Below are positions 33,114-39,334 of a stretch of DNA of 64,000 nucleotides, piece by piece (the stretch's first letter is position 1; every line of letters starts with the position of its first letter). Source of the stretch: Archangium violaceum (lineage in GTDB: Bacteria; Myxococcota; Myxococcia; Myxococcales; Myxococcaceae); NCBI RefSeq assembly GCF_016887565.1, contig NZ_CP069396.1, positions 496,001 through 560,000 of the forward strand, read 5' to 3'. A program made the translations under genes and the position numbers. The notes beneath the pieces were generated by a model that was not told where the DNA came from, did no database searches, and saw only the letters and a program-made list of their open reading frames with translations.

Positions 33114-33734
33114 CTAGTAGCGGCGCTGGCGCCGGTCCTCGCGCAGCTCCTGCTTGTCCTCGCGCAGCTCCTGCTTGTTCTGCCTCATCTCCTGCCGGCC
33201 CAGGTCGATGAGCTGCGTGATGAGCGTGCGCGTGCGGTTCAGGTCCGACGGCCTCCGGCTGCCCACCAGCGTGGACAGCTCCCGGGCGATGCTCATGCGC
33301 GCCGACAGCGAGGCCTTCTCCACGCGCACGTCCCGGATGTCGTCCCGCCGATCGCGGCGGTCATCCCTGTACTCTCCCCGGCCCTGCCACCGGTCCGAGC
33401 GCGCCTCCCGGCCGTCCCTCCGCACCTCGGCCTTGTCCGCCTCCAGCTCGTTCTGGCTCTCGGCCAGCTCCGCCCTCACCAGCTGGCGCAGCCGGTCTTC
33501 CACATCGCGCATGTCGCCCTCGTCCCGGCGCGCATAGGCCCGGTCGAAGCGCGTCAGCACGTTCTCCAGCTCCGCCACGTCGCGACGGTCGTCCCGCATC
33601 TCGCGCTTGTCCTGGCGCACTTCCCGGCGGTCCTGCGCGCGCTCGTGCTGGTTGTTCCACCCCTGCGCGTACGCGCCTCCGGAGAAGAGGAGGGAGGCGA
33701 CCAGGGCGGAAGACAGGCGGTTCATTCGGTTCAT
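33114..33734 (-). CDS. Exported highly charged coiled-coil protein
   Basis: 206 residues with a signal peptide (RLSSALVASLLFSGGAYAQG). The mature protein is almost entirely Arg, Asp, Glu, Gln and Lys, with runs such as RREVRQDKREMRDDRRD and the C-terminal QELREDKQELREDRRQRR. This predicts long amphipathic or coiled helices, and the DNA is correspondingly repetitive. No family is recognised; periplasmic or envelope localisation follows from the signal peptide. AGGGG lies nine bases before the ATG. It is convergent with the GST gene across a 34-bp repeat. Confidence 0.7.
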   Translation of the reverse strand: MNRMNRLSSALVASLLFSGGAYAQGWNNQHERAQDRREVRQDKREMRDDRRDVAELENVLTRFDRAYARRDEGDMRDVEDRLRQLVRAELAESQNELEADKAEVRRDGREARSDRWQGRGEYRDDRRDRRDDIRDVRVEKASLSARMSIARELSTLVGSRRPSDLNRTRTLITQLIDLGRQEMRQNKQELREDKQELREDRRQRRY

Positions 33735-33921: not shown

Positions 33922-35208
33922 ATGGCCCCATGCCTCCTCAACATCGACCTGGGCGAGCTGCCCGACGAGGACGAGCGGCTCTACACGTATGCGCAGGTGG
34001 CGAACATCGCCTGTGGCGGGCACGCGGGGGACGAGCGCTCCATGCGTCGGGCGCTCCACGCGTGCGCGCGCCATGGGACGCGGGTCGGAGCGCATCCTTC
34101 CTTCGTGGACCGTGAGCACTTCGGGCGGCGGGAGTTGTCGGTGGCTCCCGAGGTGCTGAGTGCCCAGGTGGCCGCCCAGTGCGCCGAGCTGACGATGCTG
34201 GCCTCCGAGGTGGGCGTGCCCGTGCGCTACGCCAAGCCGCACGGGGCCCTGTACCACGCGGCCAACCGCGAGCCCGCGCTCGCGCGCGCGGTGGTGGACG
34301 GCATCGTCAAGTCCCTGGGCCCGGGGGTCACCTTCATCGGTCCGGGCGCGGGTGCGCTGCGCGAGGCGGCCCGGGCGGTGGGGCTGGCCTACGCGCGCGA
34401 GGGGTTCGCGGACCGGGGGACGCTTCCAGATGGCTCGCTGATTCCACGCGGGCAGCCGGGCGCGGTGCTGAGCGAGCCCTCCCTGGCGCGGGAGAACGCG
34501 CTGCGCCTGGTGCTGGAGGGGACGGTGGACACGCTGTGCGTGCACGGGGACTCGCCGGGCGCGGTGGAGATGGCCCGCGAGGTGCGCGAGGTGCTGGACG
34601 TGCTCTCCCTGCGCACCGAGTCGCTCGGGGAGGCCGCGCTGCGGCTCGTGCTGCCCGCGCGGCTGGAGCGGCGCGCCGTGCTGGAGGCGTTGAAGGCCCA
34701 TCCCCGGGTGGTGGATGTGGTGGTGGGCGAGGCGCACGCCTGCGTGTACTTCGACCCCGCGGCTCCGCCCGAGGATCCGCGGCACGTGCTGGGCCGGCTG
34801 ACCGCGAGTCCGGCGGTGGTGGAGAAGCGGCCGCTCGTCACCGTGCGCGTGCGCTACGACGGACCGGACCTGGAGGCGGTGGCCGAGAACGTGGGCCTGT
34901 CGGTGGACGACGTGGCGCTGCTGCACGCCTCGCGCGAGTACACGGTGCGCAGCGTGGGCTTCCTCCCGGGCTTCGCCTACCTGGGCGAGGTGGATGCGCG
35001 CATCGCCGTGCCCCGGCTCTCCACGCCGAGGACGCGTGTGCCGGCGCTCTCGGTGGGGCTCGCCGGACAGCGCACGGGCATCTACCCGTTCGCCTCGCCG
35101 GGCGGGTGGAACCTCATCGCCACCGCCGTGGACTTCACCGCCTTCCGGCCCGACTCCGGCGCGCTGCTGGGACTCGGTGACCGGGTGCTCTTCGAGCGGG
35201 TGGACTGA
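33922..35208 (+). CDS. 5-oxoprolinase subunits A and B as one fused protein (PxpA-PxpB)
   Basis: 428 residues. Residues 1-225 are PxpA (LamB/YcsF): NIDLGELPDE, ANIACGGHAGDERSMRRAL and VGAHPSFVDREHFGRRE. Residues about 235-428 are PxpB (allophanate-hydrolase subunit-1-like): VGFLPGFAYLGEVDARIAVP, TPRTRVPALSVGLAGQRTGI and YPFASPGGWNLIATAV. PxpABC hydrolyses 5-oxoproline (pyroglutamate) to glutamate with ATP, disposing of a toxic by-product. In most bacteria the subunits are separate. The pxpC gene follows one base later. No frameshift is visible, since one continuous frame carries both domains. Confidence 0.9.
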   Translation: MAPCLLNIDLGELPDEDERLYTYAQVANIACGGHAGDERSMRRALHACARHGTRVGAHPSFVDREHFGRRELSVAPEVLSAQVAAQCAELTMLASEVGVPVRYAKPHGALYHAANREPALARAVVDGIVKSLGPGVTFIGPGAGALREAARAVGLAYAREGFADRGTLPDGSLIPRGQPGAVLSEPSLARENALRLVLEGTVDTLCVHGDSPGAVEMAREVREVLDVLSLRTESLGEAALRLVLPARLERRAVLEALKAHPRVVDVVVGEAHACVYFDPAAPPEDPRHVLGRLTASPAVVEKRPLVTVRVRYDGPDLEAVAENVGLSVDDVALLHASREYTVRSVGFLPGFAYLGEVDARIAVPRLSTPRTRVPALSVGLAGQRTGIYPFASPGGWNLIATAVDFTAFRPDSGALLGLGDRVLFERVD

Positions 35209-35209
35209 C

Positions 35210-36067
35210 ATGGACGCAACGTGGGAGGTGCTCGACGTCGGCGGGGCGGTGCTGGTGCAGGACGGGGGACGCGCGGGCAGCATGCACCAGGGGGTGCCAC
35301 CCGGCGGCGCGCTGGTGCCCGAGTGGCTGGCCGCGGCCAATCGCGCGGTGGGCAACGTGTGGAGCGCGGCGGCGCTGGAGTGTTACGGGCGGCTGGAGCT
35401 GCGGCTGCACGGGCGGAGCGCGTGGGTGTCGGTGGACGGCCGGGCCTTCCAGGTGGAGGACGGCGGGCGCGTCTCGGTGCCGGCGCCCGATGGGGCGGTG
35501 GTGCGCTACGTGGCCGTGGAGGGCGGGCTCGCCGTGCCCGAGGTGCTCGGCGGGCGGGGCACGCTGCCGGTGGCGCGGTTCGGCGGTCTCGAGGGCCGCT
35601 TGCTCAAGCGCGGGGACGTGCTGCCGCTCGGGCCTGGAGGTGGCGCCCGGGTGGAGACGACGGGCACGGCGCCGTCGCTGGAGTCCGAGGTGCGCGTGGT
35701 GCTCGGGCCGGACCTGGGCTTCTTCGGCGCGGGCGCGGCGGAGGTGCTGCTGGATGGCACCTTCACCGTGTCGGACTCGAGCGACCGTGTGGGCATGCGG
35801 CTGCACGGGCCGAGGTTGCCGCAGGCCGACGCGGGCTCGGGACTGTCCGGACCGATGGTGCGCGGCGCCATCCAGGTGCCATCCTCGGGAGAGGCCATCG
35901 TGCTCGGGCCGGACCATCCCACCATGGGCGGCTACCCGGTGCTCGCGGTGGTCATCCGCGCGGACTGGGGCAGTCTGGCCGCTCGCAGGCCGGGAGCGCC
36001 GGTGAGGTTCCGCGCGGTGGACCTGGACGAGGCGCGCGACCTCTGGAGCCGGCTCGCTCCCGCGTAG
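35210..36067 (+). CDS. pxpC: 5-oxoprolinase subunit C (biotin-dependent carboxyltransferase-type fold)
   Basis: 285 residues, about 30 shorter than many PxpC proteins. The sequence runs from VLVQDGGRAGSMHQGVPPGG and ALVPEWLAAANRAVGN to VVLGPDLGFFGAGAAEVLLD, SDRVGMRLHGPRLP and IQVPSSGEAIVLGPDHPTMG, all standard for the KipA/allophanate-hydrolase subunit-2 family. It starts one base after the stop of the PxpA-PxpB gene and must be translationally coupled to it. Together the two proteins form the ATP-dependent 5-oxoprolinase. The 3' end is 5 bp from a convergent lipoprotein gene. Confidence 0.92.
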   Translation: MDATWEVLDVGGAVLVQDGGRAGSMHQGVPPGGALVPEWLAAANRAVGNVWSAAALECYGRLELRLHGRSAWVSVDGRAFQVEDGGRVSVPAPDGAVVRYVAVEGGLAVPEVLGGRGTLPVARFGGLEGRLLKRGDVLPLGPGGGARVETTGTAPSLESEVRVVLGPDLGFFGAGAAEVLLDGTFTVSDSSDRVGMRLHGPRLPQADAGSGLSGPMVRGAIQVPSSGEAIVLGPDHPTMGGYPVLAVVIRADWGSLAARRPGAPVRFRAVDLDEARDLWSRLAPA

Positions 36068-36649: not shown

Positions 36650-37192
36650 ATGACACCCGATTTCCGCCTGGTCCCCGCCCTGCCCGAGCACGTGGACGTG
36701 TGGATGGCCATGCGAGATGAGCCCGTCTCGCGTGCCCTGATGCCGCTGGAGCCCGCCACGCGCGAGTCGCTGCTCGAGCGCCTCCGCTCGTCGACCAGCG
36801 ACCTGTCCGACCCGAAGGCCACGAGCTTCCGGTGGATGGTGGAGCTCGACGGACGCATCATCGGCACGGTGGCCGCGCGGGAGCTGTCGCGCTTCCAGGG
36901 GCGGGTGGAGATCGGCTACATGCTCTCGAGCGCGTACCACGGCCGGGGCATCGGCACGCGGGCGGTGGCCAGGGTGCTGGAGCGCCTCTTCGAGTGGCCC
37001 TTCCTCCACCGCGTCTGGCTCACCACGGCGGCGGACAACCTCGCCTCGCAGGGCGTGGCGCGGAAGCTGGGTTTCAAACTGGAGGGCGTGATGCGCGAGC
37101 ACTACCTCATTGACGGCAAGCGCAAGGACCAGCAGGTGTGGGGATTGCTGCGTTCGGAGTGGGAACAGGCCTCGAGCAGGAGGGTGATGTGA
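36650..37192 (+). CDS. GNAT-family N-acetyltransferase (RimJ/RimL-like)
   Basis: 180 residues. [18 protein letters not shown] is the usual first helix. The acetyl-CoA loop is in [20 protein letters not shown] (Q/RxxGxG/A type), and the final motif A/B region includes [20 protein letters not shown] and REHYLIDGK. This layout is closest to ribosomal-protein or small-molecule acetyltransferases of the RimJ/RimL group. The last four bases overlap the GTG of the following ROK kinase gene, so both are likely co-translated. Confidence 0.9.
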
Positions 37193-38082
37193 CGGCACTG
37201 TGGGGTGGCATCGAAGCGGGAGGGACGAAGTTCGTGTGCGCGGTGGGGACGGGACCGGACGACATCCGGGCCGAGGTGCGCATCCCCACCACGACGCCCG
37301 AGGCGACGGTCGGTCAGGCCCTGGCGTTCTTCCAGGCGCAGACGCGCGAGCGGGGCCCCCTGGCCGCCATCGGCATCGCGTCCTTCGGTCCGGTGGACCT
37401 CCACCCGGACTCACCGACGTACGGCTTCATCACCTCCACGCCCAAGCCGGGCTGGAGGAACGCGGACGTGGCCGGACCGTTCCGGCGCGCCCTGAACGTC
37501 CCGGTCGGCTTCGACACCGACGTGAATGGCGCGGCGCTCGGAGAGAACCGCTGGGGCGCGGCCCGGGGGCTCGACACGTTCGTCTACCTGACGATCGGCA
37601 CCGGCATCGGCGGGGGCGGGCTGATCAACGGCCGGTTGATGCGCGGCCTCCTCCATCCGGAGATGGGCCACTTCCGCCTGCCTCACGACCTCCAGGCGGA
37701 TCCCTTCCCCGGGGGCTGTCCCTTCCACGGCGACTGCTTCGAGGGGCTGGCGTCCGGCCCGGCCCTGGAGAAGCGCTGGGGCCAGCGCGCGGAGACCCTG
37801 CCGGCCGAGCATCCCGCCTGGGCGCTCGAGGCGCACTACATCGCGCTCGCCCTGATGAACTACATCTGCACGCTCTCGCCCCAGCGCCTCATCGTCGGCG
37901 GAGGGGTGATGGCGCAGCGGCACCTCTTCCCACTGGTGCGCTCCGAGGTGGTGCGACTGCTCAACGGCTACATCCAGTCGCCCGCCATCCTCGAGCACAT
38001 CGACGCGTACATCGTCCCGCCCGGCTTGGGAGATCGCGCCGGGGTGCTGGGCGCCCTCGCCCTGGCCCGCGAGGCCAGGTAG
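37189..38082 (+). CDS. ROK-family sugar kinase (fructokinase-like)
   Basis: 297 residues with a GTG start overlapping the preceding stop (GTGA). AGGAGG lies just upstream. The ATP-binding motif [15 protein letters not shown] is at the N-terminus, followed by the sugar site [17 protein letters not shown], the phosphate loop [14 protein letters not shown] and the ROK zinc motif [10 protein letters not shown]...[16 protein letters not shown]. Those features match ROK fructokinases. The enzyme phosphorylates a hexose in the cytoplasm. A sugar-binding lipoprotein gene lies on the opposite strand 22 bp away (convergent). Confidence 0.9.
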
Positions 38083-38104: not shown

Positions 38105-39226
38105 TCAGGGCGTGAGCTGCGCCGAGGCGCAAGCGCTCGCGTAGGAGCCCTCGCAGATCTGCGCGGTCGTCCAGAACCCGTCGGCGACGACGGTGCTCTT
38201 CACGTTGTCCTTCGTGACGACCTGCGCGGGCAGGAGGATGGAGGGCACGTCCTTGGCGCCGTTGTTCACCTTGCCGTTCACCCGGCCGGGGGGCAGGGGG
38301 TTGCCGCGCGCCAGCGCCACGGCGACCTCGGCGGCGATCTCCCCCTCCGCCTTGATGGCCTTGTAGACGGTCATGAACTGCTCACCCGAGAGGATGCGCT
38401 GGATGGCGGCCAGCTCGGCGTCCTGCCCGGTGACGGGCGGGAGCGGCGACACACCGGCCGCCTTCATCGCGGCGATGGCACCACCGGCCGTGCCGTCGTT
38501 GGCCGCGTACACGCCGACGATCTTGTCCTTGCCGAGCGAGGTGATGGCCTGCTCCATCTGCTGCTGGGCCTTGTCCGGGCTCCAGTCCGGGGTGTCGTAC
38601 TCGGCACCCACCTGCAGGCCGCTGCCGTCGAGCACCGAGTGCGCGCCCGCCTTGAAGAGCTTGGCGTTGTTGTCGGTGGGCGAGCCGTTGATGATGACGA
38701 TGGAGCCGCTGCCCTTGCCATCCGCCTTGAGCTTGTCGAGCAGCGCCTGGGCCTGGAGCTTGCCCACCTTCTCGTTGTCGAAGGAGATGTAGTAGTCCAC
38801 GTCCGCGTTGAGGATGAGGCGCTCGTAGCTGAGGACGGGCACCTTGGACTGCCGGGCGCGCGTCACGATGGCGGCGGCCGAGGCCGAGTCCACGGGGTCC
38901 AACACCAGCACCTTGGCCCCGTTGGTCAGCGCCGCCTCGGCCTGGTTCTGCTGCTTGGAGGCGTCCTGGTCCGCGTTGCTGTAGAGAATCTCACAGTTCG
39001 CGCACAGCTCCTTCACCTTGCGCTCGAAGTGCGGACGGTCATGGGTCTCGTAGCGGGCGGTCTTCGACTCCGGCAGCAGCAGGGCGATCTTCACGCCCGA
39101 GGCGGCTCCACCCGCCGGGGGGGCCTCGGGGCCCTTGGCCTCCGTGCTGTCACGCTTGCAGGCCGGCGCGAGGAACATCAGCGCGGCGAGCACACCCACG
39201 GTGCGAATCCGAGACGTCGAACGCAT
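38105..39226 (-). CDS. Sugar ABC-transporter substrate-binding lipoprotein (XylF/ChvE-like)
   Basis: 373 residues. The signal peptide ends in the lipobox LAPAC. The type-I binding fold begins with VKIALLLPESKTARYETHDR and continues with NGAKVLVLDPVDSASAAAIV, VPVLSYERLILNADVDYYIS and VVADGFW near the end, as in xylose-binding XylF. It would deliver a pentose or similar sugar to a permease. No ABC permease or ATPase gene is next to it, so it is an orphan here. AAGGA lies nine bases before the ATG at 39226; a GTG two codons upstream is a possible alternative. Confidence 0.88.
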   Translation of the reverse strand: MRSTSRIRTVGVLAALMFLAPACKRDSTEAKGPEAPPAGGAASGVKIALLLPESKTARYETHDRPHFERKVKELCANCEILYSNADQDASKQQNQAEAALTNGAKVLVLDPVDSASAAAIVTRARQSKVPVLSYERLILNADVDYYISFDNEKVGKLQAQALLDKLKADGKGSGSIVIINGSPTDNNAKLFKAGAHSVLDGSGLQVGAEYDTPDWSPDKAQQQMEQAITSLGKDKIVGVYAANDGTAGGAIAAMKAAGVSPLPPVTGQDAELAAIQRILSGEQFMTVYKAIKAEGEIAAEVAVALARGNPLPPGRVNGKVNNGAKDVPSILLPAQVVTKDNVKSTVVADGFWTTAQICEGSYASACASAQLTP

Positions 39227-39334
39227 GACCACCCGTCCTTCTCCAATGAGACGGTCCCTTCATGAGACCGGGGTGCATCCTGTGTTTCTCCCGGGGGCCG
39301 CCACAAGTTTCTCTTCTTCCGGAGTGGACACTCC

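Follow-up and report, generated by a model that had tools for sequence, protein, structure and literature searches.

The locus and its domains

Within the 64,000 nucleotides of the Archangium violaceum genome that we analyzed (the window), one open reading frame encodes a PxpA domain followed by a PxpB domain, and the gene for PxpC lies just behind it (Table 1). The first-pass annotation, which was made from the sequence alone, had described a continuous A-B frame with PxpC starting one base later. Both statements are correct for the window: the ATG of pxpC is one base past the TGA of the fused gene, in a different frame. At other fusion loci (L001-L019 and the loci that we aligned), the spacing between the fusion and PxpC varies, from overlap up to a few hundred bases. 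Downstream of the fusion, there is a PxpC match in all 19 of the loci L001-L019 and in all 10 of the loci L064-L073.

Table 1. Features of the fused gene and of pxpC (positions are those of the window)
Feature	Coordinates	Strand	Description or basis
fused pxpA-pxpB gene	33922..35208	+	ATG...TGA, one open frame, 428 aa plus TGA stop
PxpA domain (LamB_YcsF), residues 1-228	33922..34605	+	Pfam PF03746
joint, residues 226-236	34597..34629	+	35-protein alignment without a gap; AlphaFold2 secondary structure
PxpB domain (CT_C_D), residues 229-428	34606..35205	+	Pfam PF02682
pxpC gene (CT_A_B), 285 aa plus stop	35210..36067	+	Pfam PF02626

Searches against Pfam locate the joint between two complete domains. 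In the fusion protein, LamB_YcsF matches residues 6-225 (4.9e-62; 210.1 bits, above the gathering cutoff of 22) and CT_C_D matches residues 251-408 (2.2e-44; 152 bits, cutoff 22.1). In the PxpC protein, CT_A_B matches residues 28-268 (7.4e-58; 196.7 bits, cutoff 25). By comparing segment lengths, we also found that the window's PxpA is about 12 residues short, just before the DTLCVHGD motif.

Another protein with two Pxp subunits per chain is TTHA0988 of Thermus (PDB 3oep). Its N-terminal part is similar to the window's PxpB and its C-terminal part to the window's PxpC. However, TTHA0988 joins B to C, while the window joins A to B. The window's PxpC is separate, in another frame and behind a stop codon, so this locus is not of the TTHA0988 type.

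Upstream, and divergent from the fused gene, a 206-aa protein is encoded on the - strand (33114-33734). It has a signal-peptide-like start and a charged body that is rich in R, E, and D, and it has no match in Pfam. Downstream of pxpC are a GNAT acetyltransferase (36653-37192, + strand) and a ROK-family protein (37138-38082, + strand), in overlapping frames, and then a convergent gene for a periplasmic sugar-binding-type protein (38105-39232, - strand). There is no transporter gene among the neighbors that we scanned, in contrast to the unfused operon of genome G018, which includes an MFS gene (see below); this counts against the PxpABC-type reading that we propose below.

Occurrence of the fusion

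In the window's own genome, a single contig of 13.2 Mb, we scored all 73 candidates and found one match to the fusion. We searched 147 Myxococcia genomes and found a match in 76 of them. In 52 of the 147, the match is a full-length fusion without a stop codon, and the fusion is thus present in many myxobacteria. All 52 genomes are from the window's family (Myxococcaceae), they include 5 of the 6 genomes from its genus, and every one has a single match at E <= 1e-8. The other 24 matching genomes have no unbroken full-length match: 5 of these are from the same family (G002, G018, G053, G121, and G016) and 19 are from other families. A phylum-level sample of 195 genomes, which overlaps the 147, added two matching genomes, and both of these are unfused.

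We aligned 35 distinct fusion proteins, which derive from 41 of 47 fusion loci and were recognized by a sequence motif. (The motif missed the other 6 loci, which have full-length matches in the genome searches and are outside the count of 35.) These proteins are 428 or 429 amino acids long, and gaps occur only in column 2 (in one row) and in the last column (in 22 rows). The length of the joint is therefore invariant, with no insertion or deletion in any of the 35 proteins.

Neither chance nor sequencing error explains a two-domain frame of such length that stays open in 52 of the 147 genomes. We considered it very improbable that errors in sequencing or assembly created the joined frame, or that an internal start splits its product into two proteins. 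The frameshift or assembly error at the joint that the first-pass annotation had named as a way to be wrong is ruled out by the 52 genomes and the 35 gap-free joints. As for an internal start, some species do have a GTG near the joint, and GTG at residue 227 (in 8 of 35 proteins) is the commonest of the start-like codons at columns 226-236. However, none of these codons is conserved, and none of the 35 proteins has a gap there.

Both parts of the fusion are under purifying selection: against four relatives, dN/dS is 0.18-0.28 in the PxpA part and 0.32-0.56 in the PxpB part. For the 30-codon joint, dN/dS was 0.12-0.85, which is noisy as the segment is too short. This is an old, conserved, and ordinary operon fusion in a known and widespread enzyme family.

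The myxobacterial fusion also occurs, at 70% identity, in a record titled Comamonas sp. KCTC 72670 (BNCN01000002.1, our L069), a title that looks mislabelled.

The first-pass annotation had also stated that the usual order of the three genes is pxpB-pxpC-pxpA. That order does occur, but A-first orders are common too. We scanned 84,980 species for relatives, using the fusion itself as the query (so the sample is biased), and kept 80 loci from at least 585 relatives. Among these 80, 75 loci have all three domains: A comes first in 69 of them, and the other 6 are B-C-A. All 11 unfused Flavobacteriales loci that we checked also have A first, and A precedes B in 65 Halieaceae-type genomes (those of the G202 family, described below). 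Because A-first is frequent in all three samples, we rejected the idea that A before B is an unusual order. On plasmids, 226 of 606 matching records cover most of the query at one joined site, which indicates adjacency of A and B rather than their order. In published work, the orders in Corynebacterium glutamicum (T-A-B-C) and Clostridioides difficile (A-G-B-C) both put A ahead of B (PMC13274462), and the three pxp genes are described as adjacent in Thermococci (PMC9258230).

The joining of A to B is uncommon in what we sampled. Of the 80 kept loci, A and B are in one frame in 11: ten myxobacterial records (including the one titled Comamonas) and L093, which is from a Crocinitomicaceae MAG (Bacteroidota). 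B and C are in one open frame in 19 of the 80. L093 resembles the window in having PxpA and PxpB in one frame, in that order, with PxpC next; it differs in that it retains the 12-residue segment and has an independent origin. We consider it independent because its A and B group with two unfused proteins (L149 and L152) from the same taxonomic order. In two samples of genomes around L093, 17 of 299 and 19 of 150 gave a match, and the fusion is seen in L093's own genome only. (Among the Flavobacteriales, we read 11 of the 16 other matching genomes as open reading frames; the other 5, and later matches, were judged by their separate A and B matches and short frames.) G256 seemed to have a second Flavobacteriales fusion, given its equal open-frame lengths, but it has stop codons between A and B, so we rejected it. 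The A-B fusion is uncommon in the phyla that we sampled, and it has arisen at least twice. A word search of an open-access library that lacks the founding paper (Niehaus 2017) listed no report of a PxpA-PxpB fusion.

The family of G202, a Halioglobus MAG, shows how close to fusion the two genes can be. We searched 140 genomes from this family and 123 have a match. In 65 of the 123, A and B share a frame and only one stop codon (TGA, TAA, or TAG) separates them, yet among the matches in the 140 genomes, none has A and B joined without a stop. At loci L075, L081, L083, L085, L087, L092, and L099, B seems to begin a few codons from the stop. These 65 genomes are one substitution away from a fusion and none of the matches is fused, so fusion is not automatic.

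This bears on whether the fusion has any functional meaning. Overlapping operon genes could have become joined by a neutral accident, with simple inheritance ever since; we take this seriously, though we lean slightly against it. The fusion follows a single clade, and joining of Pxp genes is not rare, given the 19 loci with B and C joined and TTHA0988. However, the fusion was retained through 52 genomes with an unchanged joint in the 35 aligned proteins; A and B were fused independently in the Crocinitomicaceae MAG; and the 65 genomes from the G202 family that have only one stop in the way have not fused.

Origin of the fused gene

We built trees for each subunit, with 65 rows for A and with 63 and 62 of those rows for B and C. 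The fusion rows form one clade in the A tree (95/80), the B tree (99/92), and the C tree (SH-aLRT 99). Of our other alignments, A2 was set aside, as all 51 of its B-only rows fell on the A part, and the smaller sets A3 and A4 were used.

The nearest separate PxpB is from genome G062 (4.35 Mb, one contig), which we take to be Vulgatibacter. Its B is the sister of the fusion's B (100/99), and its A and B are 58% and 61% identical to the corresponding parts of the fusion. Like the fusion locus, the G062 operon has the gene order A-B-C and a short PxpA; it differs in that A and B are separate genes. The stop of A and the start of B overlap as ATGA, with B in frame +2. G062 likely retains the state before the fusion, with separate A-B-C genes and overlapping ends of A and B. 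Polyangia-like relatives also have the A-B-C order with tight or overlapping ends. A PxpA that lacks about 12 residues before DTLCVHGD is common to the Myxococcota A-B-C relatives that we compared, and is also found in the Verrucomicrobia loci L127 and L136. In five Polyangia-like loci (L107, L110, L117, L118, and L124), it is the other junction that is joined: PxpB and PxpC are in one open frame and PxpA is separate.

We propose that the window encodes the Myxococcaceae form of a PxpABC-type enzyme, and that pxpA and pxpB of an A-B-C operon merged, most simply once, in the ancestor of the fusion clade. We consider this probable. The route would begin with an A-B-C operon in which A and B overlap as in G062, with B in another frame. 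A short insertion or deletion would then have removed the overlap and the tail of A, which would bring both into a single frame with no linker between them.

Four unfused relatives, G018 (L031), G002, G053, and Hyalangium versicolor (L074), are arranged differently, as B-C-A (loci L031-L033 and L074). In the G018 operon (L031, 4472-7960), a gene for an MFS transporter lies between C and A. The gap between C and A in G002 is about the size of that in G018, and C and A are adjacent in G053 and in Hyalangium. The A proteins of these four are sister to the fusion's A (23 rows together, 100/98), while their B and C proteins are on the canonical side (B, 100/99). The first-pass annotation had proposed that separate genes in close relatives would count against the fusion. 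Such relatives do exist, as G002 is one of the six genomes from the window's genus; but its genes are in a B-C-A operon and its B and C belong to another clade.

The B-C-A lineage might have had the fusion in the past. When we held the unfused A of the B-C-A loci inside the fusion clade, the placement was not rejected (p-AU of 0.52 and 0.59; the two held trees score 0.08 and 4.87 log units above the free tree), and in a denser A tree the fusion rows were together at 96/71 only. Given these values, fission or replacement in the B-C-A lineage is possible, and so is loss of a former fusion. Behind the unfused A of G002, we looked for a leftover PxpB, as a tblastn match continued past the TGA to residue 265. 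When read in all frames, this was not a convincing PxpB, so we rejected it; the DNA there is presumably the end of a convergent gene.

Substrate and subunit arrangement

In this family, PxpB and PxpC would use ATP to phosphorylate 5-oxoproline, and PxpA would then open the ring, which yields glutamate. This division of labor is assumed in PMC13274462, and the biochemistry of the family is described in that paper and in PMC8453981. Compared to PxpABC from Escherichia coli (YbgL/YbgJ/YbgK), Bacillus subtilis, or C. glutamicum, the window has the same three domains, neighboring genes, and most of the conserved residues. It differs in having A and B in one chain, in its shorter PxpA, and in that all of its parts score below curated cutoffs.

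At the level of domains, the window's proteins are of the PxpABC type; none of the three reaches its curated NCBIfam cutoffs. The A part misses all five PxpA models (the best gives 201.5 bits against a cutoff of 226), and the B part misses the PxpB model (114.5 against 145.55). PxpC misses both the PxpC model (150.2 against 500) and a domain model (192.8 against 230.2). The parts from G062 fail as the fusion's do. In contrast, the proteins of a canonical myxobacterial set (L035) exceed the cutoffs for A (331.6 against 226), for B (198.4), and for the C domain model (296.1), although L035 itself misses the 500-bit PxpC model and three PxpA equivalog models. The G018 proteins (L031) are mixed: PxpB and the PxpC domain model pass, and PxpA misses 226, with 201.8 bits, much as the fusion does. 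Of the columns that are conserved in at least 90% of 28 unfused rows, the window retains 38 of 42 for the A part, 24 of 26 for the B part, and 26 of 31 for PxpC. The changed positions include Y167 to T in A, G376 to L in B, and D36 to V in C.

The first-pass annotation called this a 5-oxoprolinase. The domains agree with that name, but because A, B, and C are all below the NCBIfam cutoffs, we would describe 5-oxoproline as the putative substrate. The fused enzyme might instead be a diverged relative that uses ATP to open some other lactam or cyclic amide. We think that this is unlikely. It would fit with all three parts being below the curated cutoffs while each L035 protein passes at least one curated model, with the altered family-conserved positions in every subunit, and with the short PxpA, which the Myxococcota A-B-C relatives that we compared have in common. 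On the other side, the majority of the conserved residues are retained, and each genome with the fusion has only one match. Also, the closest unfused PxpA proteins are in B-C-A operons with PxpB and PxpC from the canonical side; in L031, PxpB and the PxpC domain model pass, so this type of A appears to serve an ordinary PxpBC. Closely related A proteins thus occur with two kinds of BC, which suggests that the A part of the fusion still works as a PxpA.

In an AlphaFold2 model of the fusion (from 52 aligned sequences), the mean pLDDT is 93 and the pTM is 0.83, a value that comes without a domain-to-domain error. The last helix of PxpA (214-228) is followed by a three-residue turn and by the first strand of PxpB (232-234), so the model confidently has the domains meeting without a linker. 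Residues 2-230 of the model align to the PxpA-type chain 2dfa (Z 32.4, rmsd 1.6, 225 residues) and residues 230-428 align to 3mml_B (Z 22.4, rmsd 3.1, 194 residues). From these alignments, both domains are complete and the junction is linker-free. A model of the independent fusion L093 has a pLDDT of 93.3 and a pTM of 0.76.

The first-pass annotation had reasoned that the fusion fixes the stoichiometry and suggests a close contact between the subunits. The stoichiometry follows by construction: a fused chain has A and B at 1:1. As for the contact, the pTM and the linker-free joint fit with it, but the model does not show it. The model suggests a defined arrangement of the A and B domains, and an A-B interface within the chain would be consistent with it. 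Solved structures that match by sequence are 1v6t, 2dfa, 1xw8, and 2xu2 for the A part; 2phc, 3oep, 3mml, and 5dud, among others, for the B part; and 5dud, 3mml, and 3oep, among others, for PxpC. Among the listed matches, the solved chains consist of a single subunit (A or B), of B together with C, or of larger proteins of the urea-amidolyase type, and none has A with B.

If the fusion is advantageous, then this may be because it couples the ring-opening subunit to the phosphorylating pair at an A:B ratio of 1:1. The fusion may also ease the transfer of the reactive phosphorylated intermediate to PxpA. A more specific proposal is that the Myxococcota A-B-C lineage, with its short PxpA and its PxpB and PxpC below the cutoffs, is a distinct lactam opener, maybe with another substrate, and that the linker-free weld in Myxococcaceae passes an unstable intermediate between fixed sites. 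We view this as speculative and unlikely.

Apart from its use as a construct, the fusion is of a routine kind, affects a metabolic enzyme that is widespread, and holds little surprise. As a construct, the natural A-B chain without a linker is ready for structural work on the arrangement of A and B and for tests of channelling of the intermediate. The B-C-A operons, which pair a fusion-type PxpA with a canonical-type PxpBC, are a natural subunit swap that bears on the same question.
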